From Lepraria neglecta (lineage: Eukaryota > Ascomycota > Lecanoromycetes > Lecanorales > Stereocaulaceae), in assembly GCA_033220425.1 (NCBI GenBank), contig CM065648.1:1054001-1118000 (forward strand): a stretch of 64,000 bases of DNA. The letters are read 5' to 3'. Below the pieces are notes generated by a model. The model worked only from the letters and a program-made list of their open reading frames with translations, had not been told where the DNA came from and searched no databases. Positions 1 through 51,313 of the stretch are shown in pieces; within the stretch, counting starts at the first letter, position 1; each line of letters opens with the position of its first letter. Position numbers and translations under genes: made by a program.

Positions 1-12
1 GAAGTATAGCTG

Positions 13-3000: not shown

Positions 3001-4691
3001 ATTAACGCTCAAGGTGGAGGCTATGGCAACGCTCTGCAGGCGGCGTCATCCGGAGGTTATGATCGAATAGTACAGATGTTACTCGACAAAGGGGCCGATA
3101 TTAACGCTCAAGGTGGATACTATGGCAACGCTCTGCAGGCGGCGTCATACGAAGGTCATGATCGAGTAGTACAGATGTTACTCCATAAAGGGGCTGATAT
3201 CAACGCTCAAGGTGGAGGCTATAGCAACGCTCTGCAGGCGGCGTCATTCGGAGGTCATGATCGAGTAGTACAGATGTTACTCGATAAAGGGGCTGATATC
3301 AACGCTCAAGGTGGACGCTATAGTAACGCTCTGCAGGCGGCGTCATTCGGAGGTCATGATCGAGTAGTACAGATACTGCTCGACAAAGGGGCCGATATCA
3401 ACACTCAAGGTGGAGACTATAGCAACGCTCTGCAGGCGGCGTCATTCGGAGGTTATAATCGAATAGTACAGATGTTACTCGACAAAGGGGCCGATATTAA
3501 CGCTCAAGGTGGACGCTATAGCAACGCTCTGCAGGCGGCGTCATACGAAGGTCATGATCGAGTAGTACAGATGTTACTCGATAAAGGGGCTAATATTAAC
3601 ACTCAAGGTGGACGCTATAGCAACGCTCTGCAGGCGGCGTCATACGAAGGTCATGATCGAGTAGTACAGATGTTACTCGATAAAGGGGCTGATATCAACG
3701 CTCAAGGTGGATACTATAGCAACGCTCTGCAGGCGGCGTCATTCGGAGGTCATGATCGAGTAGTAGAGATGTTACTCGACAAAGGGGCCGATATTAACGC
3801 TCAAGGTGGACGCTATGGCAACGCTCTGCAGGCGGCGTCATACGAAGGTCATGATCGAATAGTACAGATGTTACTCGATAAAGGGGCTGATATCAACGCT
3901 CAAGGTGGACGCTATGGCAACGCTCTGCAGGCGGCGTCATTCGGAGGTTATAATCGAGTAGTACATATACTGCTCGAAAAAGGGGTTGATATCAACCAGA
4001 AGGATCTGCACGGTAGAACTGCGCTTCATCTCGCCTCTGCCAGAGGACATAAAGCTATTGTTGAAACATTCTTCAGGCTTGCATCCGATCCGAGTTTCAC
4101 CGATATGCAAGGACGAAATTGTCTCCATTTTGCAGCGTCCAATGGTTCTACTGAATTGGTCCGTTGGCTTCTGAGGGAGGGCTTTGACCCCAATCTGACT
4201 GATCGGGATGGCTGGACTCCCATGCATTGGGCTGCCAGGGATGGATCTATTGACACCATCCGTGTCTTGAAAGATGAAGGTGCTGTATCAAGCATTGAGG
4301 CGATCAACTGGTGGAACCCACGTTCAGTTGCAGTATATCACCATAAAGAATCCTCGGCGATTCCAACCACCACTGCCACTTGCGGCACCCTCCAGTCCGG
4401 GCCGGCATTGATACCGACTTTCAGCAGTTCAAACCTTGAAGTAGATTCAACAAGCGAGGGAAATAAGATCAGCCCTGGTGTTTTTCAAGAAGGAGTTTAC
4501 TGCGATGGCTGCTTCTTGGTAAGTTAGAAATCGGATGTGCTGATAGCCTTGTCATCTGATTTTAGCAGGAAATCTACGGCCCACGATATCGATGTCTGAA
4601 TTGTGAAAATTTTGACTACTGCTTCAAATGCAAGCATTCTTCAGATTTCACCCATCCAGGTCATAAATTTGAGGAATCTGGAAATGAATAA
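13..4691 (+). CDS. NACHT-ankyrin NLR-like STAND protein with C-terminal ZZ finger (5' end missing)
   Basis: Large signalling NTPase of the fungal NLR-like (STAND) type, expected in non-self recognition or regulated cell death. Order seen: helical N-terminal region (residues about 1-180), NACHT NTPase with Walker A GPGCGKS near residue 203 and Walker B ICILDALDE near 305, a helical linker, 19 nearly identical 33-residue ankyrin repeats (from about residue 682), three diverged ankyrin repeats, and a ZZ-type zinc finger. The ZZ appears only after splicing: exon 1 ends at 4518 after CDGCFL, the intron is 4519-4568 (GTAAGT...CAG), and exon 2 (4569-4691) gives EIYGPRYRC, LNC, DYCFKC and ends at TAA 4689-4691. 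The frame opens after a TAG at 7-9 and has no ATG until 43. A CAG at 31-33 could be an acceptor, so the first exon probably lies outside the window. Family knowledge: these repeats bind ligand and vary between strains; that role here is inferred. Confidence 0.9.
2056..3984 (+). repeat. 19 near-identical 99-bp ankyrin-coding tandem repeats
   Basis: In-frame tandem array inside the NLR-like gene. Each unit is 99 bp and encodes ADINAQGG-x-Y-x-NALQAAS followed by a second helix ending LLDKG. Units are almost identical in DNA, and differences fall at a few codons: the residue after QGG (D, G, A, Y or R), the G/S before NALQ, the two residues after AAS (Y/S/F/C then G/R/E), H/Y, V/I and I/M. Unit 5 (about 2452-2598) carries a 48-bp insertion made of two extra GGD-x-GNAQ pieces. 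The array is followed by three normal, diverged ankyrin repeats (about 3985-4290). Confidence 0.93.
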
Positions 4692-6003
4692 ATCAAGATC
4701 AGGATGGAATGGTACCCTTTGAACTAACAGTGCTGGACTTGTTAGACTTTTCTCTTTGCTGCAACGAGCACACCAACCCCAATAATGCCTCAGCAGTAGT
4801 ACATAGCTCTTAAATCTAATGCAAAAATACATTACACCTTTGTGAAGGCTTAGAATGGGTACATTCTGAAAACAAGACGTGAGAAGTCCATTTAAGGGGG
4901 AACGTTTCTTAGGGCCAGTGAAGCAAATTGAAACAAGTAATCTATACGCAAAGGGGGAGAGGTCTTCAAAGTGAGCGTTTTGTTCACTAACGCTGCATGA
5001 ATCTATAGGTGTACTTTGCTTATCAGATCAGCTTGGCACTTTGGGTGAGGGCACGCGATCGGCTGATCGTCTGGAAGTGCCTTTTCAGTGTCCTCCGGGG
5101 CGATGCGTTTCGAGAGATCTCAGCTTCGCTCAATAATCACCCGTCCTTTTTAGACGTTCATATCTAAATACTACAATGCTGAGATCTTTAGCACCTGGAC
5201 CTGGACCCCTCTATGTGTAGATGCGTTCATAAACAGTCCGAAGATAAGGTTTCGATGCATTTGGATATGTTGTACTGTGGCTGTCTCTTTGCGATCCGTA
5301 CGATATCAAGACACTGCTCTCTGCGGTTCGTAAATACTTTGACTGCTCAGAAGAGTGCCAGATGTGACCCGTTCAGCCTGGGATTCTGTGTGCAAGCTGC
5401 AACGTAAGAGTCTTTCGTTCCAAGAAGCCACTTCTGCTAGTAGCCTGTCTTGCCATCATCCACCGCCTACCGTACCCCTTATACCCGTTTCATCCATTAG
5501 TCTATATCGCGCAACGAGAGAGAAGACCAGTATCCGCGATGAGCGCGACATTATACAGGCGATCGCGGGCACACTTCGTCCCTTCCAAACCTGAGCAAGC
5601 ATCGATTACCTACCAAGCTTTGAGCGCCCTTCGGAAGGATTGTTGTCGAGTAGAGTCCAACTGCGAACCCTCAACCGTTGATCGGCAGAATTGGGAATTT
5701 GTGAATTACAGGGCAACAGGTAGCCGAACGCAGTCGGCTCGCTTAGCAAGATATTCGTGGCGAAACTCCCCTCGAAATCCCTTGTAGTATTCCCTTAAAT
5801 CATGGGCGTCATTGTCTCTGATGGTGCCAGTCCTAGGCGGGTTTGGTTCTTTCTCATAATTCTTCAGCCTTCCCAGGAGGTCTTTAAGAAATTGAGTATA
5901 TCAACCATATGACAAAGGAATTCGAACAGGGTCTGCGCAGAAGACTTGGCAGTTAATCTTCCTCAGTAATAGATAGTCGCTAGGGAGAGCGGTCTGCTCC
6001 GTA
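4692..6003. other. Gene-free stretch, nothing recognised
   Basis: Downstream of the NLR-like gene. Only short open frames are present (for example 5539-5787) with no family resemblance I can name, and there is no convincing splice structure. It probably contains decayed mobile DNA, as the sequence on its right does. Confidence 0.5.
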
Positions 6004-24476: not shown

Positions 24477-27284
24477 ATGTCGCGAGGGGAAGAACCTTCA
24501 ATCATAGACTACGCTCGCTTCTACGGCTTGATCCGCGACCACCTTGAGCCTCATCCTCTGCATGGCATTGCAGCACGCGACAGCCTACCGTCATTAGAAC
24601 TAGATGATCATCCAGGACTATCAGACATCGATTTCGCTAAATTCAAGGTCCCAGAGGAGCGCTTGACGGTAGACGCAGGGGCTGCTTCCCTGCTGTCATG
24701 CATCGCAGCCTTAGCGAAAGAAGCCCCATCACGACATGATGACGGGATCGATGCCCATCGGGTTCGGCAAATAAAACATGAGTTACCTCTTCTACGCTCG
24801 GATCATGAGCTTGACGTGCTCAATTTCGCACCTCGGATTATACCTGACCTCGAGCATGAGTTCTTGCCGTTTGAAACGGTAGACGAGGAGGCGGATGAAG
24901 GCCTGACATGGCCATCTAGGTGCTACGAACTACCGAACGAGTACGCCAAGAAGTCGATTTCAGAGAAGCTGCAGGTGTCGAGCGATGAATTCAAGTATCT
25001 ACACGAGACACTGAGATTTCACCTCGAAGGTAGTGATCATGCAGTGTTTGAGTATGATGACCTACCATACAAGAAGGTACGTATTGTCGACAGCCCTCGA
25101 CATTGTGGCCAACCGGTATTGATCATACCATAGAAACCCAAAGTGGAACCCGTATCGCCGCCTCTACTACCTTTATCGCCGAGTCCCCAGCCTTTCGTAC
25201 CGTCATCCGAAACTGGACACCTCGACCTCCTGTCTGACCACACCAGCCCAACTCGACAAGAAGCACACGATGTCGAACGAATGCTTTTCGATGACGATGC
25301 AATCATTGTTCCAAAGAAGCAAGCAGGCTCTAGCTCACAATGCTCAGATCCAATGCTGCTGGATTCAGAGAGCCTTAGTGACATCTACAGCCCACTTAGA
25401 GACATCAAAGATCCACCGTCATCACCTCCACCATTGAGACCGCCATTACAGGACCGCAAAGTCGAGGTACCGCTGTCACCTGCGAGATCAGAGCGGCCGC
25501 CGCTATGGAAGGGGGAAAGTGTAATATTCAGTGAGGCCTTGCCTGAGCTCATTCCAGACCTTCCACGGCCAATCCCAAAGCCCGAGGATACGTCCTCTAG
25601 TGATATTGATGCGTTCTTTGAGGAGGCCATTGCATCGATTGGTATCAAAGTGAAACGAACCATCGAGCAGGAGCAGCTGCAGGAGGAGGATACTACGCTC
25701 AGAGTTGTTGTACCGGTTATGGATTTCTCCTTGCCTATTGCCCGGTGGAAAGCAAGCACCAGAGCCACTACGTCCCGCGAGACAGATGATGTGTACAAGG
25801 AAATGTTGAAGGAGATGAAAGCGCTTCATTTCAGCAATGACCCTTCCAAGAAGCATATCTGGCCCATGAATGGGAAGGCCGAGCGAGAATTGAAATGGGC
25901 AGCCTTCCCTACTGCGCTTGGGAAAGTCGAGACGCAGGAGAGCATTCTGGACGACGGGTCCCTTGCCAAATATCTAGCCCAGCCTGAGAGGGTGAATATC
26001 GACACATTGACTTGGAAGCCTGAAGGTCTGCGTATACTGGATGAGCTGGCTGAATCTGATGAGGAGGTACTTGAAGAGGGAAATTTTCCCGAAGAGAACA
26101 ATATGGAGTCTCTCATTAGGAAGCGGAAACTTGAGTTGGAGGTAGCTGACACCAGCCCATCTTCAGACGGAATCTCCAGAGCAACGAAAGCGAGGCCGTC
26201 AAGTAACCGGGATGTAACCACGGGCCTAGCTGAAGTCAACTTCGAGAATAAGAAAGAAGTTCAAGCGGCTCAAAGGAACGAGAATCCCGGAAGTACATTC
26301 GCAGACAGCTTCTCTGCCATGGGTGCATTGGACGATTTCCTGAACGTACGAAAGGGCATCATTGAGAACCCGAAGCTGAAAGCAGACCATCATTTCCCGG
26401 GTGCGCCGTCTACCAAACAACCAATATTAGTACAGGCAGACACGGCCAAGCCTACCTCGAAGAGCATCGTGCCATCACCAATTGTCACACCACCAATCAC
26501 ACCATGCCCCTTCGTCGTCTCCGCCTCCTTCCTCAGCAACCGAAACCTTTCACGTCAGATCCAGACTTCATTCCCATCTGCAGAGTTCATCGAGCGAGAC
26601 TTCAGCCTCTACCTAGCCTCTCAACAGCGACTACCATCCAAATCCAACACAGCGCCCCCACTTCTGAGCACCATGGCCGACGAAGCAGACATGATCCTCT
26701 CACCAAGTACCGGCCTCATCTGGACGACATTGCAGAAGATCAAACAGCGCTCCCTGCCTGGCAAAGTAGCCCGATCAGCCGTTCGAGAACGCATACTAAG
26801 GGCCAGTCCACGGTATGAGCGATTACTTGTCATGGTCAGCGAAGATCGTCAAGCCAACGACTCGATTGTCCCAAGTCAGCTCGATAACAACGACTGTGAA
26901 GCCTTGGTCGAATTCACGACCCTTTGCTCAAGCCTGCACGGTCAAGTCACCGTCACATTCATAGGCGGCGGTGAAGAAGACCTAACGAAGTGGATCGCGG
27001 CCATAATGGTCAAGTACGGCATCGCAGACCAAGAAGTGAAATTGCTCCAGGATGAAACACTATGGGAAGTGTTCCTCAGGAGAGCAGGCATGAACGCCTT
27101 CGCCGCGCAAGCGATACTAGGTAAGTTGAAGGCGCCAGAGCAGCCGCAGAGCCATGAGGTCGATTCCGGACTCACCGCTTTTGTCAAGATGACATTGGAA
27201 GAGAGACTCGCTAGGTTTGAGACATTGCTCGGGGGCAGACGCCTGTTGAACAGGGTCAGTAAAGTCTTAGATGCTGGATGGTAG
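24477..27284 (+). CDS. Large fungal protein of unknown function (possibly DUF7102, XPF-like C-terminus)
   Basis: Two exons (24477-25076 and 25134-27284) with a 57-bp intron (GTACGT...CATAG) join LPYKK to KPKVEPVSPP and give 916 residues. The N-terminus reads SIIDYARFYGLIRDHLEPH and LSDIDFAKFKVPEERL. The middle is acidic and Pro/Ser-rich, so probably disordered. The C-terminal third (about 640-900) is ordered, with VVSASFLSNRNLSRQIQ, AEFIERDFSLYL, MILSPSTGLIWTTLQKIKQR, RYERLLVMVSED and VTVTFIGGGEEDLTKWIA. That pattern of strands with a conserved acidic ERD and a helicase-like order recalls XPF-type nuclease-like domains such as those of Zip2/SHOC1, but I cannot prove it. No clear catalytic motif is seen. 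The gene model is secure; the function is unknown. Confidence 0.8.
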
Positions 27285-27527
27285 CAAGTTTTGGGACGGG
27301 AGGAGCTGGCTTTGAGACAAACATTGCTCTTTTTCATCCCGATCTAGCTTCAATCTTGTCATATAGCGTATATAATCTTCGCTTTCAATTTTGAGCAGCC
27401 TTAAAAGCTCTCAATCCCAACCGTACCAAAAACCCCCAAAAGTTTGTCCCCCCACCCCATCACTTCCATTCACCCCGAACTCCTATCCATCCTCAGCCAC
27501 ATAAACCTATACACTCCCAAACCAGCA

Positions 27528-29142
27528 ATGGCAACCATAGTCCTCGGCACCCAATGGAGCGACGAAGGCAAAGGCAAACTAGTCGACATCCTCTCCTCAT
27601 CCGCCTCCCTCTGCATCCGAGCCCAAGGCGGCAACAACGCAGGCCACACAATCGTAGCAGATGGCAAAACGCTTCGCTACCACAGCGTACCCAGCGGCCT
27701 CGGTCTTGCGAATCCAAAATGTGTTAATCTGATTGGAGCGGGCTGTGTTGTTCATGTTACCTCCTTCTTTGAAGAATTGGAGAAGTTGAAGGAAGCTGGC
27801 GTGGAGACCGAGGGGAGGATTTTTATTGCGAAGGGGGCACATGTTGTTACTGATTTACATCAGTTGGTTGATGCGTGTGAGGAGAAGGTATTGGGGGAGG
27901 GGAAGTTTGGGACGACTGGGAAAGGTGAGCAAGCGACGGAACGGAGCTGTTGGGCTTACGCTTACCACACTTCTTTTAAAACTTGTAGGCATCGGGCTAG
28001 CATACAGCACCAAGATGAACAGGAGTGGAATCCGCATGGCAGACGTGCTCGACAAAGAGCTTTTCCACAAGAAGCTCATCCGATTGACGGTGGATTTCCA
28101 GCGACGGTTTCCAAACTTGGACTATCATCTGAGTGGCGAGGCTGCGAAGTTCCAAGAGTATCGAGAGAAGCTGCGGCCGTTTCTTGTTGAGCAGGGTCCA
28201 TTGTTGAGGGATGCTAAAGCGGAAGGGAAGAATATCCTTATTGAAGGGGCTACTGGGTTCATGCTCGATATTGGTAGGTGTTGAAATTTGTTGGGGATGG
28301 ATATTGGATTTATAACTGAGCAGATTCGGGTTCGTATCCTTACGTGACATCTTCCATCACTAGCGTTGGTGGTATTCTCAATGGTATCAATCTCGGCTGG
28401 CAATCTATCGGCGAGGTTATCGGTGTGGTGTAAGCACTCTTTGCATCTGCTTCATACTCGTAATCAGGCCATAATGACAGGGGACTAGCAAAGCATATAC
28501 CACAAGGGGTTGGTAGTGGACCGTTTCCGACGGAGCAGCTGAACGCTGTTGGCGAGAAGCTCCAAGTGCTTGGCAGAAAATTCGGCGTGACCACTGGGCG
28601 TAAGCGGCGAACCGGATGGTTTGACGGCGTTGCTTTGCGGTATGTAGTACTTCCGGAACTATGACTTGCTGTAACGGTCTGACTCGACCAGGTACGCTCA
28701 TTCGTCCAACGAGTACACTTGGTTGAACCTGACCAAATTGGAGTTCGTATATCCCTGCTACCACGATAAGGCGATTCCGTGCTAATGGTTCTTCACAGCG
28801 TACTCGGTGGCTTCGAAGAAGTCAAAGTTGCAATTGCGTACTCTCACAAGGGGAATATCTTGGAAGATTTTCCTGAGAGTAGTGATGTCTTCAAGGACCT
28901 CGAAGTCGTATATGAGACATTGCCGGGCTGAAAACAGTCGACCGCTGGTGTGAGCTACGGCAATTTGCCGCTCAACGCGAGGAAGTACGTTGAGTTCATT
29001 GAGGAGTTTATTAGCAAAGGGCTCACAGAGGTGAAGGTCAAATACATTGGGACCGGTAAGTTGGTATTCTCCCGCTACTCTTACACTGTTTCTAAGCCTC
29101 GTGCTTCTAGGTTCAGACAGAGAGCACATGATCGTTCGATGA
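27528..29142 (+). pseudogene. Disabled adenylosuccinate synthetase copy
   Basis: Encodes a recognisable AMP-pathway enzyme (IMP + Asp + GTP to adenylosuccinate), starting [20 protein letters not shown] with [10 protein letters not shown] and ending with REHMIVR and TGA 29140-29142. At least six introns can be placed, for example near 27926-27988, 28274-28323, 28432-28489, 28640-28691, 28747-28799 and 29056-29110. Two lesions break it. One is an extra G in AAGGGGTT at 28505-28510, which shifts the frame inside [16 protein letters not shown]. The other is TGA at 28929-28931 in place of the usual Trp after ETLPG. The GDEG loop also reads SDEG. Rare alternative splicing or a sequencing error could rescue one lesion but hardly both. 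An intact, differently spliced copy lies at 33954-35601. Confidence 0.8.
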
Positions 29143-29483: not shown

Positions 29484-30285
29484 TCATTTTGGGTCAAAGC
29501 CTAAAAATCTGAGCTTGACATTGTACAAGGATCAGGGTCAGTGAAAGCTCACCGTAGATCGGTCGGCCAAGCTGCAAAACAAAACAAACACTCGGTCAGC
29601 ATTCCCACCGCAGCAAAGAGTCATATAAAGGGCAAAGGAGGGGTAAAGGTTCGACTTACTCGTTTTAGAGCGAAAATCACCTGCTCTCGTTAGTGTACTT
29701 AAGCAAATGATACGCGGAGACGGTTCACTCACATCTGTAACTGTCACAGCTAAGACAACAAGGACAGAGATTAGCAATCGTAGAGACCAAAGCGCTCTGT
29801 GCCGACTATGACTTACTCTTCCGGTTTGAATGCTGGACGTATGCCGTACAGTCATGTAGTATCTTGAGCAACGAGTCAGCACCGAGGTCGGTAGAAGGAG
29901 ATTATTAGCGGGATTACCAGCTTCAATCTGGCGATCATAGCCTGCCGGACCTCGTCGTATATCGTTCCAGATATGCGTTTCACACCGCCTCGCCGAGCTA
30001 GTCGCCTGCAAAGCCAGTATATTAGCTCAAAGCCCATTGCCCTCCAGTTCCTGGATGCGTACCTAATATCACCTTTCGTTACGCCTCTCACTGAATCCCG
30101 AACGATCTTCCTGTATAGCGCATACCAATCAGCACTGCCTCAGGTCCTCCAAACATCCCCTGGTCCTGTAAATTGTGGTATTCTTCATTGAAAGCCCATC
30201 GCGCCATGCCATGCTGCCCTCATACCCTCTAGCCCACGTACCGATGTCGTTTCATCCCTCCCTTTCCCAAACCTTTCCCGCCCAT
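29484..30285 (-). CDS. Histone H4 variant, eight exons with micro-exons
   Basis: Nucleosome core histone, divergent H4 type. Exons: 30285-30242, 30110-30063, 30005-29918, 29862-29817, 29749-29733, 29680-29660, 29571-29553 and 29500-29484. All junctions have GT donors and AG acceptors and the frame is exact. The product (99 residues) reads [16 protein letters not shown], then [30 protein letters not shown], a helix with [26 protein letters not shown] and LGRPIYGFDPK. Compared with core H4 it lacks the SGRGK start, has Met before K16, and ends FDPK rather than FGG. The same frame continues upstream of the chosen ATG with PRRTLGGKGILGGGKGK and is still histone-tail-like, so the true start may be further up in another exon. 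Some ascomycetes keep a similar divergent H4 beside the canonical one. No single ORF reveals it. Confidence 0.85.
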
Positions 30286-30938
30286 CCCCAACTTGCCCTT
30301 GCCGCCCCCTAAGATTCCTTTTCCGCCGAGGGTGCGCCGTGGTGCGCTCGACGATGGTCTGACCGTGCTGGCTGAAGATGCAGGTGCAGGTGTGGGTGTC
30401 GGTTCCGGTCGAGCTCGTCGTGGTTGCTCACCCCCCAGGTAGGGATCAGGCGGTTGGCTAAGCCCAGATTGACCATGTTGATAACTTTTAGAGAGCCGAA
30501 GGGTGGTACGATGGGTATGCGAGGCACCTGGTGGAGGAAATCTGGTGTTGATGTGAGGTGAAGTGATTTGAGTGGTTGGCGGCTTCTGATTGGACGCGTC
30601 AAGGTCGTGTAAATAGTGGGGTTTCCTACGCGATTATTGCCGGCAAGAGCTTCCAGTCTACCTTCACACTACTTTATTCGTGCTTCAAAGAATTCTTTGA
30701 CTAGCTATGCTTACCGTAAAGGTGAAGTATGTACATGAATCTCAGCGCAATCTAGTCCACCTGCTTGAAATGGCGCTGATTCATTTTGAATATTGACCAT
30801 TTCGGATATTCGCTATGCAATTGCACACATCTCAGTCATACAAATTGTCAAACATGTATAATTGCGGATTAGAGCCAGACCAGCCGGTCATCAAAGGGTT
30901 GCAGTGCTCGGTATTCCTCTTCTGAAAAAACTCGCTTT
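30286..30938. other. Upstream region of the H4 variant; possible extra 5' exon
   Basis: The frame of the H4-variant first exon stays open to about 30550 (PAPASSASTVRPSSSAPRR), so part may be coding. No in-frame ATG is present, and I could not find a splice that supplies one. The rest holds nothing recognised. Confidence 0.4.
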
Positions 30939-33953: not shown

Positions 33954-35601
33954 ATGGCTACGATTGTTTTGGGCGCCCAATTCGGCGATGAAGGTGTGTT
34001 CTCTCTAAAGCCACACTTTTGTGGTGAAACATCCTTTCTTTGGGCTGGATGTTCTGTTTCGAAAAACTATGCTGCGGACAGTCAATGGGCCTGAACCCCA
34101 CAAAGATCCCAGTTGGGCACTTGGTCGAAGCAAAATCTTGGTTGCGGCAGCTGATTGATCCCTTGCTGTACCGCTGTGCCGCTTTACAATTCCGTTCAAC
34201 TGACAATTTGTGCAGGGAAAGGCAAGCTCGTCGACATCCTTTGCGCGTCCTCCAACATCTGCGCGCGGTCAGCCGGTGGGAACAATGCGGGTCATACCAT
34301 CGTCGCGAACGGGATCACATACGACTTTCACATACTTCCCTCGGGTCTTGTCAGCCCAAATTGCATGAATTTGATAGGCTCAGGAGTGGTGGTTCATGTC
34401 CCATCGTTCTTCAAAGAGCTGGCAGATTTGAAATCGAAGGGGCTGGATACCGAAGGACGCATCTTCATATCGGATCGCGCCCATGTCGTGTTCGATCTAC
34501 ACCAGCTCGTAGACGGTCTCGAGGAACAAGAGTTGGGAAAAGGAGCAGTTGGAACCACAAAAAAGGGGATCGGACCCGGCTATTCGACAAAAGCTGCGCG
34601 CTCAGGTGTTCGGATATCCGAGATTTTCGACAAGGAGACGCTCGACCGCAAGCTACGAAAAATGGCTCACAGCTTCGAAAAGCGTTACGGTGGCTTGCTA
34701 CAAGGGTATGATGTCGAAGAAGAGATCAAAAGAATGGACGAGTACCGGGCAAAGTTGTCAGATTTCGTCGTGGATGCTGTTCCTTTGATCGAGAGTGCGC
34801 AGTCTTTACCCGATACAAAGCTACTAGTTGAGGGGGCGAATGCCCTGATGTTGGACGTGGATTATGGAACTTACCCCTACGTTACGTCTTCCAATACGGG
34901 CATCGGAGGTGTCTTTACCGGTCTAGCGCTCAACCCATTTAAGATAAAAGAGATCATTGGTGTGGTAAAAGCCTATACAACGAGGGTCGGGGGCGGGCCA
35001 CTACCTACTGAACAACTCAATGAGCACGGGGAGAAGCTGCAGTCAGTTGGCAGGGAGTTTGGGGTAACAACCGGTCGGAAACGAGTAAGTTGGTCTCTTT
35101 TCCTGGTGATCTACGCAGTCTCCGGGGCAGAATCCCCAACATTCACCGTATCGTCGGCTCAATGCCCTTGCAATCCGCGAAATCACACTCGTTTCCCCAG
35201 AACATATAAAAAGCTGCGGGCTCACATATAAATTGTAGCGATGCGGCTGGCTCGATCTCGTGATAGTGAAATACAGCACGGCGGTAAACCACTACACATC
35301 TCTCAACCTCACCAAACTCGACATTCTTGACGATTTTCCCTCGATAGAGGTCGCCACAGCATATAAAGTCGATGGCCAGATACTCGACTCTTTCCCAGCA
35401 GATCTAAACATGCTAGCGAGGGCTGAGGTCGTCTACACCACGCTTCCCGGATGGCAGAAGCCCAGTATGGGGGTGAAAGCCTATTACGATTTACCAAAGA
35501 ATGCCAGGGCTTATGTAGAGTTCATAGAGGAATTTGTGGGAGTCAAGGTCAGGTACATAGGTACCGGGCCAGCGAGAGAAGATATGATTGTACGTCCGTA
35601 A
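33954..35601 (+). CDS. ADE12: Adenylosuccinate synthetase
   Basis: Converts IMP, aspartate and GTP to adenylosuccinate, the first step to AMP; homodimeric cytosolic enzyme. Three exons (33954-33993, 34216-35084, 35239-35601) give 423 residues, the usual length. The first exon has only 40 bp ([14 protein letters not shown]), and the 222-bp intron splits the GDEGKGK phosphate-binding loop. Other signatures are [69 protein letters not shown] joined to RCGWLD across intron 2, and [12 protein letters not shown]. The catalytic Asp and His of these motifs are present. QFGDEG replaces the more common QWGDEG. The symbol follows the yeast orthologue. The disabled copy 5 kb upstream has different introns. 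Confidence 0.93.
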
Positions 35602-38103: not shown

Positions 38104-41100
38104 TCATTTCTCTCCATCCGCTTCAGCTGAGAGCTGCTCGCTCTCATCCAATATCTCTGTGATTCGTGCAAGGTTGGCAATCGTGTCCCTTCCATGGCCC
38201 ACCAGGAGCAACTTCTCTGCGTTTGCTGGAAGCCCGAGGTATGTAGGCGGTTCACGTTCAGGCAAGCGGTTCACCCATTCCATGAAATCCTTCATCTCGT
38301 TCCCTTCGGGAACCGTCAAGCTACCATCTCCCTCAGTGTAGACCTCTGCTTCATCCCTTGGAGCGCCTTTTACCAGCTTGTGGTCATCCTCGAAGGCTTC
38401 TGGTGTCAAGAAAGTGTTGACAAGCTCAGATAGCTGCTTCCAATCGCCTTCATTATCGATCTTGCCGCCGTATGTCTCTGTGATGAGAGTCCGAATCAGG
38501 TCCCAAGGGATCTTGACAGGAGCAACGTTTGTCCTTCCATTAGCGACAGCATCCATCCACGTGTCGATGATGTAGGCCGCACATTCATACTATGCAGATG
38601 TCAGTCTCATTTGGCGTGCTGGGGCATCATAGCTAGCACTTACGTCGCTGTCATTGAACTCCCAGAAGCCTTTCCACCCCAGAGTTGGCGCATACCGCAG
38701 CCGCTCTTGAATCACTGCATGTAGGAAAGACAGCAACAGGTATAGTCTTGCTTTCTCCCTTGGTTGCTGCATGGCTCGAACAGACAGGGTGGATAGGGAA
38801 TCCTTCATGTTTGCTCGCACTCCGGCTGGCTGCTCGTACATCAAGACTCGTGAAGCTCTAAGTAGGTTGACAGGTATCTTGGGACTCGTCTCCATGGAAA
38901 GGAACACTCGGAAGTCAGAATGAGGCTTGAGCGATCCAAGTCGTTTCTCCAGGCTCTGAAGCCAGATTGGTGCAAGGTGTACGTTCTTGATCAGTACCCA
39001 GGATCCGGTGGCGGCCGCGTTGCTGATGGCATTGTCTGCGCTGGCGACACCCTCATTGGATCCCATAGCGATGTACGAGCATTGAGCTTCCTTCTTCTCG
39101 ACCAGATTCTCGACCTTGTAACTTGCATCGAATCCGGGACTTGAGGCTAGCGCAACTGGAGTCGTGGGTGTGACTTGGCCAACAACTTCTTTGAGGTCGC
39201 CTGTGTTCTCGAACAATGACTTGCCGAACACTGCTGCGACGAATTTCTCCGCTGCCGGTACGAAGCGATCAAGCCTAAATAATTTGATCAACAAGAGCGA
39301 TCGAAGCTGCTGGTCTAGAGCGCTGGTCCCTTCCTCCCAAACGACTGGTACGAAATTCTCTGCTAGCTCCTCGGTAAGGAAGCGGTCCCAGTCTTTGGAT
39401 GAGATTTCAGAGATGAACGGCTTCAATGCAGACACACGAGCAGCCTTGGCCTGGGCGTCTCTGTGGATTTGGTCATCTGCTGAGGTATCGTTCCCCTCTG
39501 TGTTTTTGCTGAGGATGCTGTCGACAAGGCCTTTATCCATCAAGTACGGCGAAGCTTGAGCAAGCAGCATGGCGAATGTAACGCGATCCTTTTGCAGTAG
39601 ACTGAGCGAAGTCCTCCGGTACGTATTGACGAATAGATCGCGAAGGATGATTTCTCCCCTACCAGAATAGTCCTTGACTCCTTTGAGGTTCGCATTGCTG
39701 CGTAGTACCGAGTCAAAGATGTCGATAAAGTATTGCAAGGAGAATTGGTAGAAATGATTGAGGTGGTGAAGTTGCTCGAGGATTGCAAAGACAGCACTGC
39801 AGGCGCGAGCAATTGCATCGTATTGCTGGGTGATCATTTCCACTTCAGCCATGACACCATCCGTTTCAGCCACCTTCTTCGATATCTCCCCAGATTCCTT
39901 CTTGAGAGTCTCAAGTGTTTCAATCACAACGTCGTCATCGAGGATGTTACCACGCGATTGGTTGAGCGCTTGAAGTAGTCGCTTCTCGAGACCACGCAGA
40001 TGGGTATTAAATTCGCCTTGCATTTTAACAAGATTCGTGCGCCTCTGATCGACGTCTGGCCTCTCAGACTTGAGCACATCATTCAGTGACTGCGTCTGAA
40101 GACTGCTTTGTGTGACAGTGAAGTTGACGAAGGTAGTTCGACTACAGATGTCTGGCGGGAACATGGCCGAAGGATCTCGAGTGGACAGGTAGAGCTTGAA
40201 TGCTGGCGAGAAGTCGATTTCTTGTTTGCCAAGCTGGATCAATACACGACCACCAGTCTTTTGATATTCTTTGTTCAATACGTGGTTCAGCACTGGATCC
40301 AGGTGCTCGGCGTCTTGTATCAGGATTGGATTACCGAAGCGCAGGGAACTCTCAAGCTGCTTGATGAAAGAGTCGTCCAGGAAGCTGGTGACTGTAAGTC
40401 GACGGTCTTTGCACTCATTCTGCAAGAACTCCGTAGCACGTCCAGAAGGGTCAATGATCAGGGGGTACCGGTTGAAGCGTTTCAAGACGATTGCGTTCTC
40501 CGTGCATAAGTCATCGACGGGCAAGCCGTTCTCTTGCCACTTCAGCCGCTCGTCTGCATTTGACAGATACTCCGTGACTGGGTTGTGCATCTTGTATTTG
40601 ATGCCGGAGAGCCCCAGCTGATCCAGCCAGTCGTCGAGCATTGCTTTGCGTAACACCTGATCGTAGAGACCGCTGTAGGCAATGAAGGCTGCTGCCACCA
40701 GGACATCACCGACAATGGTGCTGATCTGAGTCTCGAATGATCTGCTTCCTGACTCCCATCTTCCCCGTTCTGCTGAAAGACTGTCAAGTAGCTTCACGCT
40801 TCGATTGACTTTGTTCTCGACTCGAGACATCTCTGATTTGATTGACTGCGTTTCGCTGATAAGAGCGGCATATTCTGACTTGTAAGTAGCAATGCTGTTC
40901 TCAAGGTTGTTGATGGTATTCTCAATGGCTTTGGCCTCCGCTTTTGTCTGCAACGCTGCCTCTTCGAGCTGGTCTGCCTCTTCACGCAGAGGACCAATGC
41001 GGTCTAGGATAGCAGAGAAATTGACTTGTGCCTCGACCCACTGGACGAGCGGACCGCAAGCCTTGCTGGCGCGGTTCACCTTCTCGTATGTGAAGTCCTC

Positions 41101-44100
41101 TTTGGAAAGAAACTCGTTCTGCATTCGGGTGCGGTGACTTCGTGTCATCTGGCGCTCATTGTCATAGCCCACAATGCTAGCAATGAAGTCGTCTTTGCGT
41201 ACAATACCCTGTATGGTTTTCCAGCTGTCGATTTTGTGACCGAGCAATGTGCACACGGCTTCCAAGGCAAGCTTAACACCAGATGGAGGGTTGCCCATTG
41301 AACGAACTTCAGTCAAGTGCTGACGCTTGATATTGCTGACGCTTTCTTGTGCACTGATAACAGCCGGTTCGGCCTTCGCAAGGTCCGAATTTACAACTTC
41401 CTTTCGTTTCGCTACCTCTTCTTCTTGCTTGTCAAGGTTGGCCTGGATTTCGAGGGAAGCGGTCTTGCGCTGCTCGGCTTCACGTTGATCGGCGACCATT
41501 CGTTGCAGCTTCTCGTTGGCCTCGGCGTCCTTCTTTTCCAGCTGGCCTTTCTTCTGTGCTAAGCTTGCTCGTAGATCTCGAACTTTGTCGACGGTGTCTT
41601 TCAGTTTTTCCAATCCGACATTGAGATGCCGCTGCTGCTCCTCAAGATCTTCACGCTTTTCGTTGAATAGCCGCACGCACTGATCAACAAAGTCGAGAAA
41701 ATGTCTAGGCGTGAGGAACGTCTTCCTTCCTTGTTGCTTGAGAAGACGTTGATTGAACCGATGGAGTGAGTGGTGCACATAGACCATCGAGTTGACCACT
41801 GCGTCGCGGTGGTTGGCGGGCAGCGTGAGATCGCGGTAGGCAACAGGTATACTGTCAGGCGCAACAAAATCAGGGCGATCGAGATCCACGGATTGGGTTA
41901 GCTCAGATCCGACTTGGAAGAGTGCCTGATCTGACCAATCACCGAACCAGTTCAGCACGCAACGGTTGAACAAAGCTGGGCTTGTTGCAGCCTTTGAGGA
42001 GAGTCCGTCTTCTGGTGGATTCATGGTGAAGACGATGTGCAGGTTTTTGACGATCTGTTGAGTAAACCACTTGTACAGCTCTTCTTGAGAATCGAGAAGG
42101 AGTCCTTGCCGTTGGGCGCCCTCTTTACAGGCAGTCATGAGGGCCTGGAATTCGTCTCCTTCGAAAAGCCCTGGCACTTCTGCGTTCGCGAGTAGCGTGT
42201 TCATGCGTTCAAGGAAGCCGGAGTCCAACACATTCGATTCGTCCATGATGAAGCAGATCTTTTCGCCTTTGCAGCCAGACCGGCGTAGCACATCTCGTAA
42301 GTCGTCGTCAAAGTCGCTTGCAGAATATTTCCCATGCACCTTGATCTGGAACACCTTGAGCCCGTTCATCCACGCAACAAATCTTGAGAGCGTTGTCTTG
42401 CCACTTCCGCTGACACCAATCAGGATCAGATGCCCTTGCGGTTGACGGAACACCCTGTCAATTCGAAGTACATGTTCAAGCGCATCATTGAATAGGATGA
42501 TAGGCGTATCCACCTCTTCCTCGCAGAAAGTCTTCAATCTTGCTTTGACAAATTCTCTAAGTTGTTCTCGCTCCACGGGCACGTAGTTCTTAGAAAGCCA
42601 GTTAGAGAAGAGGATCGGTCCTCTTAAGGCAGATTCCTCGTCCATGTTCGGGAAGTGCTCCAGCGCAACGCGACGAACCACGTCGTAAGTCCATTTGCGT
42701 TCATCTTCTGCTACGAGTCTGTCTTGGAACAATCGTAGAGCTTCGTGGGCCCATATCCTGACAAGCCCCTCCACGGAAAGATTCTCCAATGGTTTGATAG
42801 CTTCGTACAGCCCGCGAACCCACCTCGTCAGTTCACGAGGCGAGTAAACATAATGTGGCTGGATCTTGGGTGTAAAGCGTTGCTGTGTTTCGCTGTAGAA
42901 TTGTACCATCGCTTTGGTAAGAGGATCAGAGTAGCCGCGAAGATTTGGGATAATCTTGAGAACAGCACTGTTAAATGCACCGTAGATTTGCTGAAGGGAG
43001 ACCTCTCCAGGATAGTCGACCATGACCAAAGGAGCATGTCTCAGGAATCGTGCACCCATCGGCGTTCGTCCAGCATCAGTCGGAGGGTTGCAAGCTCCAA
43101 CAAACTGAATTCGTTCGAGTGTGACCCAGGTCTTGTCTGACGTTCGCCAAAATCCATTCTGTTCGACTAGTTGGCGGAGGAAGGCTATAGCTCGTTGCGT
43201 CCCATACTTGTCTAGAGCTGGAAGATTGATTTCATCGCAGAAGAACACCAGCCATTTGCCGATCTGCGTTGGTGACATGACAACCCCGTTTAAAGTTTTC
43301 CGGTATTCACAGTATTGGTCGAATGTCTTAATTAGCAAGTCTGGTGTAGTCGCACTTGAGAAGTTCAATCCAACGACTTCCATGTACGGCAATTTGCGCA
43401 GAGCACTGAAGAGGGTCATGGTCTTGCCAGAACCTGGTGGACCGCAAAGAATGAGAGGCTTGTGTTCGGCAAGCCAGGAGTACAAGACATCCTCGTGGCG
43501 TACTGTGTCCAGTGTCGGAATGACGACGTCGGTTTGAGTGACTGAATGGGTATTGATCTCAATACCTGGGACCTGAGACTGCCAAGGCGTCCACTCCGCC
43601 CTCGGAAGCGAGACATCGTAGTCGATCAAGGAAGATGATTCGCTAAGCAGCGGCGTGTCAAATGTCGTAAGGTTAGCAATGTATTCGCCAAAGGCTTTTC
43701 GTTCTCTGATCGGGCAATCTCCAACTAGTGCCCAGACCAATGCAAGTAGCATTTTCTTGGAGGTAAAAGACTCAACTTGTTCCGGATCCAATGGAAAGTC
43801 CTCGTGCTGTATGTTGTATTCGATAATCGTCCTGCATGCTTTGTTCAGGAGGGAGAACAGAGTATTGAGTGCTCTGATCTCTGTGAATTGCATGATGTGA
43901 CTGTACTTCTGCGCTTCTTTAAGGGCGTTGTCGAGGAGGTGCTCGGTCCCGAAGAAATGCTGAAGCAGATCTGCAACCTGCTCCTGCATTACTAGGGCTT
44001 TAGCTGACGTTTGGCCTGCTGCCTCCTCATCGAGCTCATCAAATGCGGTACTTCGGAGACCTTGGAGATAGTTTGCGACCAGCATATCGGAGGTGACAGT

Positions 44101-47100
44101 ATCGTCGCTGAGCCAAACCATACCGCAACGACTGACAGTCGCCAGAGTGGCATACTTGAGAGTCTCAACCTCAAACAATATGCGAACGTTTGGAGGCAGG
44201 CCGAGACGTTCTCCGTTGGGTAATGTGAGGAGCTTGTTGTCGTCCAAGACACTGTTGAGATTTTCGACCCACTCAGGATCCACGTCACCATCGAACACAA
44301 TCCAGTGTCTCTTTGAATCCTCTCCACGTAAGTTGTCGACTATTTTGCGCAAGATGCTTGTGAATAGACCGTCTGTCCACTCTCGTGTCGTGCTGTCGAG
44401 GCTGCCGTATAGAGCTTCTTTCGACATGACTTTCGAGTCAATGATGTGGCAGACGCCTTCTACACCTTCAGCTCGTTGGAGCGCTCTGAGAAGGACCTTC
44501 CAGATAGCAGATTTGCCGGACCCAGAATCGCCGACCATCATGACTCCGTGGTGGATGCCTTGTATCTGATAGAGTTGTAATATCTTCGTCATCCACGTAT
44601 CATTAATCACAAGGTGTCTCTCCGCAGCTTCGGTGCGAATGGCATTTTCCAATTTCTCCAAATTGGCGGATACGTAATGGACGCCAGGGAAGGCCTCTTG
44701 CTCGACGCGTTTCATTGTTTCCACGTCGCCACGGATAAGCTTCGGTGCTATCGTCTCTCGAATACTCTGCACGATGATTTGATGCTCCAAATCTTCCTCG
44801 GCTTGTGCATCTTTCGTATTTGTTGTGAGTCTGGTCCGCTTCAGGCCACCGGAGCTGACAAGGACGCTTTTCAACGCCCGCAACCCAAAATCGTAGTGAG
44901 CTTGTTTGGTCAATTGAGCTGCACAGCTGTCGAAGAACGGCACGGTCTGCTTGGAGAGCTGCTTTGCTTGCTTGAAACCTTGAGAATAGAGCATGACCTC
45001 AGCGATGAGTTCTTTATCGGGTTTCGACATTGCTACGCTGCGGAAGAGCTTCTTCAGATTGTCTGGCAGATTCGACCGTCCAGCATATCCAGGGTTCATT
45101 GTGATGAATATTCCAGTATTTGCATTTACGGGGAATTGTCGTCCCGCCAGCTCAATCTGCGCATTGCCGGATTCGATGCCGTTCTTCAGGCCTAGTTGGA
45201 TGTTCTGGATCTGCTGAGAGACGGCCGAAAGTATGCGTTCCTCCAAACGATTGAACTCATCAAAGCATCCCCAAGCACCAACCTGGCAGATACCGAGAAA
45301 AATGCGGCCCATTGCCTGGAAGTCGAACGTGTCGTCACAGTTGAACACCAATGTGAACCTGCCAAGCTGCACACCAAGAGCCTTGACCGACTCCGTCTTG
45401 CCGGTACCTGCTGGGCCATAGGGAGATCCACCAAGACGTTGCGCCATTGCTTGCGTGCAAGTAAGGAAACAACGGTCGGTCAATGGGGTTCGAACAAGCC
45501 TGTCCGGAACGCCAAGATACTCGAAGCCATATGCGAGATCAGCATTAGCCATCTTGATACGAAGGCGATCAGCGAAATCACCCTCGGGCTTGTAGATGTA
45601 GCGCATCTGCAGAAGCCACAAGTAATGAGTAGGAGCGGTTGCATTGGCGCTGATCAGCTTTATGATAACATCGCGTTGGTGGACGAATTCCGTGATCAAG
45701 TGCTCGCACTTCTTCCTCATCAGAAGCTCGAGATCTCCCAGAACGGTGGATGCCAAAATTTCGAGCAATTTGACCGACACATCATGTAAGGATTGAAGCC
45801 CGCCACCACCAGAAGTTAGAGCGGTATCGACAGACGAAGTCCAGGCTACTTGAGTGGCAAGTACGACTACTTGTGCTGGAAAAGCGACGAGGTAATTGTG
45901 GAAGGATGTAGTGTCGATTTCTGGCGAGCTTAGCAGTGCTTGAAAAGACTCCACGGCCTCCCCAAGGAGTTCAGCTAATGAGGACTTCATGTTGTTTTCT
46001 AGTGCAGCGAGCCAGTCATTGATCTTGGGGGTCTTGACCAGGGAGATAGGTCTCTTGAGATGAACTTGCTCGCTTTCTTTCGAGGTGAAACCGGTAATGG
46101 TGGCTTCTTCTTCCATCAAAAGCCCGGACAGGCCGGCAAACATCTTCCGGAAGTGCTTCGCAATTCTCATGGTATCGTTGCTGTTACCAATGATCTCAAG
46201 CAGGTCCTCGTCACCAACGAAGTAGAATCTGGGGAATGAGATCCGTTCGCGCTCGAGATATTCTCCTAGAGCCTTTTGAATTTTGTTGAGCAACTCGGCA
46301 AGGCGCTCCAGCGACTTCTGCACACCTGAGATGTTGAGCACGTCAAGGACGAATGGGGATTTGTACACCTTCTTTAGCACTGCAAAGAACTCCGAGTTGA
46401 TGTTCTGAAATCTCGAGGATTCGACCGGTAGCAAATGCTTGATATCGGCGTTGCCAGTGAAAACTCCTTCTAGATAGACCCACTGTCTTTGCACGTCGAT
46501 CCAGACATCGAAGAGCACATGCACGCGATTGAGCTTGTCTTCCCAGGAAGAAGCTTCCTCATCGAACTCTTTATAGTAAGGCGAGTGTCGCATTGCCTGT
46601 AAAGAATTGAGATTCTCGCTGCACTTGGCGAACAGATCGTCCCAGCCTCGTATCAAACGACACTTGTTCTGATAGTTGACCAGCTCCAAAGAGTAGTTTT
46701 GCCAAGTATCACGCACTTGCTTCAGGAACTCTTCCAGCGCCATCTCTCCTTGCGCTTGAGCAATGATATCTCGAATGATAGTTTCGCTCGAAGCAAGTTG
46801 CAGGTCCCAAACGTCGCCGAGGCTCATCGAGACTGGAGAGTATCGTTTTCCAGGCTTCAAAGCTTTGTAAATCTTGTTCCAATGACGTTCGCGAACTGCT
46901 TCTGACTTCATGTCGGAAAGGAGTGGATTGACTTTCAGCAATTGGCGGAGGACTGATTGTATGTGCTCGAAGGCAGCATACTGGCGCATACGGCTCGGCA
47001 TCTCTTTCGTCATTTTTATCAGTCCATCAATTGATTGCCGCAGTTTCCTGGGTTGCACGCTACTCCAGAGAGTCTCCCTTAGATCATTCAGGCTCGTCCA

Positions 47101-50100
47101 TATCGTTGACAGAGCAGCCCATACAGACTGGAAGTCATGGACTTCCTCCAGGATTGCAGGCAATGCATTGTCCGGGTTTCCAGGTAGATTCAAAGCTTCT
47201 TTGGCTTTGAAGACCATGTCTGACTCGGATTGCAAGACTGTGAGGCGACTCTCGAAGGAGCTGAGGGTCGAAGATGCTTCATTCGGAGGGACGTTTCCAG
47301 ATACTGGCTTCTCGTCGTTCCAGTTGGCTATCAAGCCGCTGACCTTTCCACTAACCACTTTGTCCTCAGCTAGGATCTTTGCGCGTAAAGCATCCGTCTG
47401 GTCCTCCACAATTTTCAGTTTTCGATCCAGGATCTCATTCAGAGCAGTCCACTCATGGTCTAACTGGTCGACAAACAGCCAGTCGGACGCAAATTGGTAC
47501 CGTTGTCGAGTGAGAAGTGTCTGGCCTTGGCGAAAGATTTCAATCTCGGGTTGCCAGACTTCCACCTTTCTTCTACATTGCTGAACAACTGTAATGAATG
47601 CGACAGCTTGAGCTGTGGACGAAGCCTCGAGTGACTGGCCCTCAAGATCTCGGCGAGCTTTCTCGATTTCAGCGTAGACTTCGCGCATCCGGTTACCCAA
47701 TCTTCCCGCGAATTTAAGCCGTATCTCATGTTGCCATTGATCGTATCTGCCGGTCACTTTGGTCTGAACCTGCTCGTAGTCGATCGTTACAGTACCGAAA
47801 CTCTTACTTGACTCAGATGTGTCGAAGGTCTCGCGAGTCTTTCGGATCTCTTGCAGTAATTGCAGCCACTTTGCCAAATCAGAGCCCAGAACCTCGTAAA
47901 CATGCTCTGCCTCGAGATCCCACAAGGACTGAAATTGGAGCCATTTGTCGACGTAGCTCACAATTTCGCGCAATTTGTTCTCGACGGTCTGATACACGGT
48001 CGACAGCTCGCCAACGCAGAGACCTGGGAGGTGTGTGAAACGAGACTTTGCAGCACCGGCGCCGCTCATATCGATCTTCATTTCGTATCTCGAAGACAAG
48101 ATGATAGGAAGATTGCAAGCAACACCTAGCCATTCGTGGAATTGAGACAGCCAATTTGCACGAGCAGACTCGACTGGAGGGTCTAGATAGACAGTCTGGT
48201 TCCGCATCAGGACCTCGAGGATAAGGGTGCGCAGGTGCGGCGCATTAGGAGCTTCTTCATGTTCTGTCGAAACCTGTCTCCGCAAACTATCGCCAGTATC
48301 GTTATCTGTTCCAGATTTGGCAAAAGTCTCAACCCAGAGGTGCATTGCATTACGGAGGCGCTCGATCAGTATGCTTTCGATCGACTGGTTCATCTTGTGG
48401 ACCCAGTACGCCAGGTTGGCATAATTCTCCAGGTTCAGCTGATCTACGGCTGTCTGAATCGTCTCTAGCCGTATGCTGAACGCTGATGCTTCGTAGGGAC
48501 AGATTTGCAGTTCATTCATTGCTTTTTCGATCTTGTCGTATATCTCCTGTAGCGCCGCAGTCTTACTCTGTAGGACGGAAGCCGTTGCTGCAAAATCCCG
48601 CACAAATTGTACGTGCTTGCTCTCACCTCGGCCACCAGATGCAGAGCGCGAAGTCGAGGCACCTGCGAGGAGTGGAGCATGCTTCACATGAAGATCGTAG
48701 GAGTGTACGAACGACTCCCATTTGAGGGTTACGCCTGTGACGATAAGGTTCTGTATGTCCTTTTGGTATCCGCTGAGGAGAATGGAGATCTTTGGCATCG
48801 AATCGATGACACGGCTCGTCTGAGCTAGAGTGCGGACGCTTTCCATCAAGCTGACAGCGTATGGGTAGACTCGCTTAGCTTCTTTTGAGATACTGCTGAC
48901 GGCATGCGGTATTTGATAATTTAGCCAGAGTAAGTTTCTTACTTCCTTGAACAATACGATGACTTGCGGGTCGAAGTTGACTGTTAGCTCTAGGGCGTTT
49001 CCAGTTGCACGAGTCCTGACGATCCCAAAGAGCCGGCCGCCAATTGAGATGTTCCGTTGCTGCACATCTCGCAACCATGACTCGAATATGGGTCTAGTGT
49101 CAAGCTTCTTGCGAAACATGCTGCCTTCAGCTTCCAGCTTCTGTCCCTCTGAGTGCAGGGCCCAATCTTGGCCAAGCACATTCTCGACCTTTTTCATATA
49201 GCCATCGAGTTGGCGTTCGATTTGGCGGGCCCATATAATTGCACCTGCTACTGGAGGTAAGTCCCGGAGCTGGGCCATGGCGTGGGCTTCAGAGTGTCCA
49301 TACTGCTGTTTGAAACGTTCGTGTAGAGCAGATATGTCATGTTTGACGTTATCGATGAGCTGCGTCTGGTATTCACTGATGGCGCCACGGATCTTCGGTC
49401 GAACAAACAGGGCGTTGAATTTGGAGAATACGCGGAACATCTCGTTCGCGGTCTTCGCAGTGGCTAAGCGATCTCTGAGTCGAGCAATGATGGAATTTTC
49501 GACTCGTGACGTCCGCTCATTATAAGTCGCCTCTGCCTGTACCCAGATCTGCGTTCCTTCTTCTGACACATCGAGAACATCGACATCTTTCAGAGCTGCG
49601 TATGCCTGAGCCACCTCTTGCACTGCATCGACATCCCCGATCTCTTCCACAAGGACGACCTGATCACCATTGACCTCATCAGCCGCGGCGCTGTTCTGAC
49701 CTTTGTTTCCAAGCACAGTGACAATCGTTCGCTGTAGCTGTTCATGATTCACTCGGAAAGTCCTGACATAGTTCATGCGGTCTTGCGTTTTCGAATGGCG
49801 GCCAACAACTTTGATAGGCATGAACTTCTCAGCTCTCTTCCTCATTAGCTCACGAGCTACGTTCGTAAAATCCTTAGCATGTTCGTCCCATGTGCTCCAG
49901 ATATTCTCAGCTACATCCATCACGGCTTCAAAGTCTTTGAATTCAAGATGCATGAGCGTTCGCCCGTAAAGGAGAGAGTGGAGCTGCGTATCGAGATCTC
50001 CAGAAATAGCATGGACTAGAGGCAGAGCACGCGCGATAGGGTAGGAAGTGAAACGCAGCTTCCGATTGAGATGACCGAAGATTGTGTCCAGAGATTCTTG

Positions 50101-51313
50101 CAATTTCTGTAGAGTCGTTGCGGCTAGCAGGTCGTCCATAGGAAATTCTCGCATCAGTTGATTGTACTTCTGAACGGTGTCTAACGCCTCTTTCAGTCCT
50201 GTGTCTGCATAGAAACTGACTTTGACCTGATAACGTTTGGCATGCTGCAATATATCCAGCGTGAGCTGGACCCCATCGTTCCTTGTCTGCAAGTCGATGC
50301 TCTTCAGCGCTGATTCGAGAGATAGCCAATAGTTGATCTCTTGTGTTGCAGAACCGCTGTCGGGGTCCCGAGACATCTTCGTGATGGCCTGTATAGACTT
50401 GATCCAGTTGTTGACGGTGTTTTGTAAGTCATTCAGAAATCTGGTATCAGATAAAAGCTGAGACGGTATCAACTCCACAGATGGTTTGGCGTTATGCGAA
50501 GCGGCCGTGTCGAGAGCCTCTTGAACAACATCTGGAAACGTAAGAACCAACTCGGGGATCTCGACATTCTGTTGTAAGTGCAGCAGGCTCAGTTCCAGTT
50601 CTGCTAGCTTTTTCTTTGTGCCTGGCACGCCCGATTTAGCATCTGCATCGGACCGGTCATTGCTCCCTGCCAACGACTTCTGACCCCGCGTGTAGGCGTT
50701 GAAATATGGTGCTAAGGCGAGATGTACTATCGAGTGGAGGATCTCGTAGGGTGAGACGGGGCTGCCTTGCGTTGCAGTGCTTTCTGCTAAGGTAGCCACA
50801 CCGGGCAAGTTGATGACCTGTATCTGCGTAGGAAGTGGTATTCGTGGGTCTATGGGTTGTGGGCGTTTGATGAGGGCTACCGAAGCAACAGTGGTGGGTG
50901 AGAAGGATATCTCGGTCGAGAGCAGATAAATGTAATGGAAGGTATGATCTAGGGATTACTGTCAGTACGGTGTCTTAGGCAATCTTGTGGTCGAGTATAC
51001 CTGATGAGACATGACCATTCACGGCCCCATTCGCCAGCTCAGTCGTAACAATAGTTTTCTGAACATAAAGGGCCACTTGCGACTCAGAGGCAAAGCGTGT
51101 GCACCACTGGACTGTGTCGCTCCTCCTCGCCTCTGAAAGTAGACTACCTTTGCGTTCTAAGTCTTCTGTTGATGCCCCCAATGTTATCTCTAGAAGGTCC
51201 ACCAGATGCCGCACCACCAGGTCCGGATCGATAGATGCTGGAGCGGGTGGAGGGGGGTATGCCCGTTGGCAGCCCCTTGCCCTGGAGTGGCTACCTCCAT
51301 GATGGAAGGGCAT
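38104..51313 (-). CDS. DYN1: Cytoplasmic dynein heavy chain
   Basis: Minus-end-directed microtubule motor for nuclear positioning and early-endosome transport in hyphae. Three exons (51313-51001, 50948-38644, 38589-38104) give 4367 residues, the normal fungal size; introns are 52 and 54 bp. Order seen: N-terminal tail ([17 protein letters not shown]), linker, AAA1 with GPAGTGKT near residue 1948, AAA2 GDSGSGKS near 2245, AAA3 GPPGSGKT near 2608, AAA4 GVSGSGKT near 2949, a coiled-coil stalk at about 3200-3500 ([40 protein letters not shown]) around the microtubule-binding domain, then AAA5-6 and a C-terminal domain. All four P-loops look functional. Start: the long exon opens with TTG only; splicing to exon 1 supplies the ATG at 51313. 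The last exon restores [19 protein letters not shown]. Confidence 0.97.

Follow-up and report, generated by a model that had tools for sequence, protein, structure and literature searches.

The gene on the minus strand at positions 29484-30285 of the analyzed window (a stretch of 64,000 nucleotides of Lepraria neglecta contig CM065648.1) is very probably, at roughly 93%, the H4E gene of filamentous ascomycetes (hheA / H4v), an old histone H4 duplicate with its own many-intron structure. Its eight exons splice into a histone H4 variant of 99 amino acids, with a coding sequence of 300 nucleotides spread over 802 nucleotides. The first-pass annotation had read a micro-exon H4 gene here, and that observation is confirmed as real and correctly read. 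The gene is identified as H4E rather than as a lineage-specific variant because its exon lengths (88, 63, 21, and 19 nt), its intron phases, and its linkage to dynein and svf1 genes coincide with those of the family. The accompanying suggestion of a newly found kind of H4 is not borne out, since such genes are already in print as H4E, hheA, or H4v in the consulted parts of PMC10878826 and PMC5307856. H4E is present in most Pezizomycotina and is represented in Aspergillus nidulans by hheA, AN12228 (Flipphi et al. 2024, PMC10878826). A seven-intron “third” H4 was described in most Aspergillus genomes (De Vries et al. 2017, PMC5307856), and Neurospora crassa H4v (Hays et al. 2002) is the H4E orthologue according to PMC10878826; the function of N. 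crassa hH4v is given as unknown in PMC6703697.

The gene model was examined with a purpose-built spliced alignment, whose only inputs were canonical H4 and GT-AG introns. The alignment scored 248; 200 dinucleotide shuffles averaged 32.7 and did not exceed 51, and in a tile control the best non-overlapping score among 210 tile-strand combinations covering bases 1-63600 was 53. Junctions 1-6 are reproduced exactly, as is the start of exon 7, while the alignment already sets in one codon before ATG 30285 and overshoots the end of exon 7 by 2 bases. Exon 8 was omitted by the alignment because the gain in similarity from its 17 nt is too small to pay for another intron. All seven introns (phases 2, 2, 0, 1, 0, 0, and 1, in order) have GT-AG borders, and all seven contain a CTRAY branch-point-like motif, the one nearest the acceptor lying 13-35 bases from the intron end. 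By comparison, 9.9% of 5000 random 60-base stretches contain such a motif at −46 to −13, a range chosen after the introns had been seen. The coordinates and the eight exons, four of them of 17-21 nt, that had been proposed before are correct, and the strand is minus (Table 1). Genes made of micro-exons can evade annotation, the longest exon here being 88 nt.

Table 1. Features of the H4 variant locus in window coordinates, with exon lengths in 5'→3' order; remarks on published H4E follow the consulted text of PMC10878826
Feature	Positions	Strand	Length	Remarks
Exon 1	30242..30285	-	44 nt as proposed	phase-2 donor GTACGT; true 5' end uncertain
Exon 2	30063..30110	-	48 nt	equals 32 + 16 nt of published H4E, with i2 absent
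Exon 3	29918..30005	-	88 nt	ends in phase 0; exon 4 of published H4E has 88 nt
Exon 4	29817..29862	-	46 nt	ends in phase 1; with exon 5 equals the 63 nt of H4E between phase-0 introns
Exon 5	29733..29749	-	17 nt	micro-exon
Exon 6	29660..29680	-	21 nt	micro-exon VIFALKR; an exon of 21 nt flanked by phase-0 introns is likewise present in published H4E
Exon 7	29553..29571	-	19 nt	micro-exon; ends in phase 1
Exon 8	29484..29500	-	17 nt	...GFDPK + stop; placed by hand, outside the spliced alignment
Upstream frame continuous with exon 1	30286..30633	-	116 codons	open, without in-frame ATG; last 20 codons APRRTLGGKGILGGGKGKLG resemble the H4 tail
Upstream ATG (TATCAACATGG)	30474..30476	-		out of frame with exon 1
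Dynein heavy chain	38104..50955	-		Pfam domains; taken as nudA orthologue

The best phmmer match of the predicted protein in PDB is histone H4 (E = 6.3e-36, residues 2-96, no gap). In Pfam, the variant matched CENP-T_C at 25.9 bits, below the cut-off of 28.1, and TAF at 23.9, above the cut-off of 21; PF00125 (Histone) and CBFD_NFYB_HMF did not reach E 0.001. Canonical H4 also matched CENP-T_C and TAF, together with CBFD_NFYB_HMF, and its score for PF00125 was 25.2, under that family's own cut-off of 26.4. Two canonical H4 genes are found in the 42-Mb genome of 11 contigs (C2:850392-850757 and C4:4566121-4566503), identical to each other across the 99 residues compared. The variant and canonical H4 of this genome are identical at 58 of 98 residues, with no internal gap. 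The canonical gene on C2 has exons of 10, 138, and 161 nt, with introns in the codons of Arg4 (Met = 1) and Met49 (numbered without Met), and for the one on C4 the alignment recovered exons of 136 and 161 nt but missed the first exon. None of these intron positions is common to the variant and canonical H4. For fungal H4 genes, 98 introns at 22 sites are reported (PMC3029354). The earlier reading, a divergent micro-exon H4 that differs from this genome's canonical H4 genes, is supported.

The whole genome was searched with the variant exon by exon, with scores for the best candidates only. The 11 matches listed comprise four in the gene itself, four in the canonical genes, one relic, and two weak matches, and no second H4E-like locus is among them. 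The weak matches to the H4E query (C1:2076107-2076337 and C2:3478111-3478317, E about 0.01) are perhaps other histone-fold proteins. C5:2671774-2671902 was rejected as a second variant: it matches only positions 7-49 of the canonical H4 query, and its spliced alignment scored 121 with no further exon. Within the interval C5:2667000-2676500, this degenerate H4 fragment occupies local positions 4754-4930 on the minus strand; query positions 7-49 fall within the canonical 138-nt exon, and the fragment appears to be the remnant of a canonical H4 copy. In a scan of viral_contigs, 10 stretches fit a pattern and none was a relative.

Most core basic residues are retained in the variant, as are K8, K12, K16, and K20 and the basic patch R17-H18-R19. 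Methionine stands at position 15, before K16, and the C-terminal end is changed to GFDPK, both as the first-pass annotation described; this end is one residue longer than in canonical H4. Of the tail lysines, only K5 could be lost. Changes are concentrated in helix α2, which we take to span residues 49-76: 20 of its 28 residues are changed vs. 16 of the 57 in residues 16-48 and 77-100 (P = 0.0002, Fisher's test, picked after the alignment was seen). The retained lysines and basic patch, together with the extent of change in α2, suggest examining octamer stability rather than lost tail marks. In its remaining tail this member is comparatively canonical, because PMC10878826 stresses that many H4Es have lost conserved tail residues, including a change of K16.

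The N-terminal end of the protein depends on the start codon. From ATG 30285, the tail would be shorter than in canonical H4, without K5 and also without R3, and with A15 replaced by Met. The context of this ATG is TTGGGGATGG, which we take to be poor by general fungal experience. The 40 codons upstream of it score 33 against the H4 tail (18 of 2000 shuffles are as good), and the other two frames of the same stretch score 15 and 18. No ATG lies in frame within the 116 open codons upstream of ATG 30285. That this frame is open was rejected as evidence of coding, since a frame open over 116 codons also occurred in 189 of 2000 shuffles. The shortened tail without K5 that had been proposed holds only if ATG 30285 is the start, and this is doubtful, given the in-frame H4-tail-like codons upstream. 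A shorter tail would also run counter to the trend of the family, as the N- and C-terminal tails of published H4E are longer than those of canonical H4 (PMC10878826).

ATG 30476 is possibly the true start, through a splice not confidently identified, or it may belong to an upstream ORF. None of the joins that would connect an upstream ATG through an intron to the H4E frame was convincing among the 27 + 44 considered. The set of 27 (consensus-like GT donors, introns of 42-400 nt) contained a single join with a branch motif, one that has a poor acceptor; the set of 44 (from ATG 30476, any GT or GC donor) was judged by eye, with branch motifs unscored. The most interesting join has a 47-nt intron directly after ATG 30476 (donor GTCAAT, acceptor GTGAG, CTGAT inside) and would yield the tail MQPRRARPEPTPTPAPASS..., but weak splice sites kept it from being adopted as the start. 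Codon usage speaks against a long upstream tail: at 30495-30406 the frame of ATG 30476 has the top scores (4.8, 3.1, 3.8), and the H4E frame has −0.8, 0.0, and −2.1. By this measure the H4E frame leads only over the 20 codons directly preceding ATG 30285 (1.0, 2.6) and over some stretches farther upstream. Judged from the sequence, the odds that the tail is longer than that from ATG 30285 are about even.

Codon preference, defined on the two canonical H4 genes themselves, separates the variant, with 25 of 95 canonical-preferred codons, from the canonical genes (64 of 101 and 53 of 98) and from dynein (1537 of 3936). A codon choice so unlike canonical H4, and the lack of a well-placed in-frame start codon among the upstream ATGs and joins examined, could be expected of a decaying H4 duplicate whose spliced frame has stayed open by chance. 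Such a pseudogene is nonetheless improbable here: eight exons remain in frame without a stop, GT-AG borders and a branch-like motif are kept in 7 of 7 introns, core basic residues are mostly kept at 58/98 identity, and the exon lengths are typical of the family. Furthermore, an H4 relic in the same genome looks different, being a fragment without the second half.

Taking the gene as H4E, we infer that it is spliced and translated at a low level, because only 25 of its 95 codons are canonical-preferred. By means of its histone fold the product would pair with H3, and it would become part of a minority of nucleosomes. In these nucleosomes the largely conserved tail could still work, and the changed α2 and C-terminal end could alter octamer stability. 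In A. nidulans, H4E is nuclear, and BiFC shows its interaction with H3; its level increases when nitrogen is lacking at 37 °C, it was unable to substitute for H4.1, and the deletion of hheA has no detected phenotype. The H3 interaction and nuclear location are in print only for this orthologue (PMC10878826). A more specific proposal, which we offer tentatively and consider rather doubtful, is an H4E with kept acetylatable tail lysines and basic patch, a rebuilt α2, and an extended K/G-rich tail from an unannotated upstream first exon. If this is true, the special property of the protein would lie in the octamer core, not in tail marks.

The surroundings of the gene also resemble those of published H4E. 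hheA sits between nudA (dynein) and svf1, as stated for Eurotiomycetes and Dothideomycetes (PMC10878826). Here, dynein lies 8 kb from the H4E gene (C3:1092104-1104955 vs. C3:1083484-1084285), and a match to the svf1 family (PF08622, E = 2.7e-50) lies on the same contig, ~59 kb off, at C3:1143309-1143844. The likeness is one of linkage only: compared with the published order, that found here is hheA-nudA-svf1 with other genes interposed (AA9, a second adenylosuccinate synthetase, and a GNAT protein). Two adenylosuccinate synthetase genes (PF00709) flank H4E in the window, at 27405-28284 and 34155-35231, both on the plus strand; by eye their sequences differ clearly, so one of them may be an old paralogue. 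The plus strand of the window also carries, at 25134-27284, a long ORF in which DUF7102 (PF23394) and a SAM-like domain (PF23395) were recognized and, at 10-4527, an ORF that is NACHT-like by eye, with many near-identical ankyrin-type repeats (NALQAASYGGHDRVVQILLDKGADINAQGG).

Typical H4E has seven introns. The first, i1, is in phase 2; exons of 29-32 and 16 nt come next, then i3, also in phase 2, an 88-nt exon, and introns in phase 0 (PMC10878826). A 63-nt exon bounded by phase-0 introns, split 45 + 18 in Eurotiomycetes, and a 21-nt exon are described as well (PMC10878826). A phase-1 intron follows the last phase-0 intron after 19 nt in early classes and Lecanoromycetes and after 18 nt in Dothideomycetes (PMC10878826). 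The gene described here shares with A. nidulans hheA a divergent H4 fold in eight exons and seven introns, and with published H4E the phase-2 i1, an 88-nt exon preceded by a phase-2 intron, 63 nt of coding sequence bounded by phase-0 introns, and the 21-nt exon. Its phase-1 intron comes 19 nt on, as in H4E of early classes and Lecanoromycetes. It differs from published H4E in lacking i2, with one 48-nt exon in place of 32 + 16. This absence was not treated as excluding H4E because, according to PMC10878826, introns may have been gained and lost in different taxa. Sequence trees of H4E are unstable according to the same paper.

The 63 nt are divided 46 + 17 in phase 1, compared with 45 + 18 in Eurotiomycetes, so that the inner intron lies one base later, with no extra codons. 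By the class patterns that PMC10878826 gives, the exon of 19 nt agrees with early classes or Lecanoromycetes, and the division of the 63 nt is similar to that in Eurotiomycetes; this exact intron combination is not stated in the text of that paper as consulted. An intron set that matches neither published model, with i2 absent and a 46 + 17 split in phase 1, might suggest a recent lineage-specific H4 variant whose micro-exons were gained independently of H4E. We consider this extremely improbable, as exon lengths of 88, 63, 21, and 19 nt with their phases coincide with H4E, and so does the linkage to dynein and svf1.

Few variants of H4 occur in eukaryotes, and what H4E does is still a question without an answer (PMC10878826). 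The H4E gene of L. neglecta is one more member of an already described, still puzzling family, and its intron combination, preserved tail lysines, and uncertain start are points of small interest. Compared with published H4E, it retains the tail lysines K8, K12, K16, and K20, and its C-terminus exceeds that of canonical H4 by only one residue, vs. seven in A. nidulans H4E (PMC10878826).
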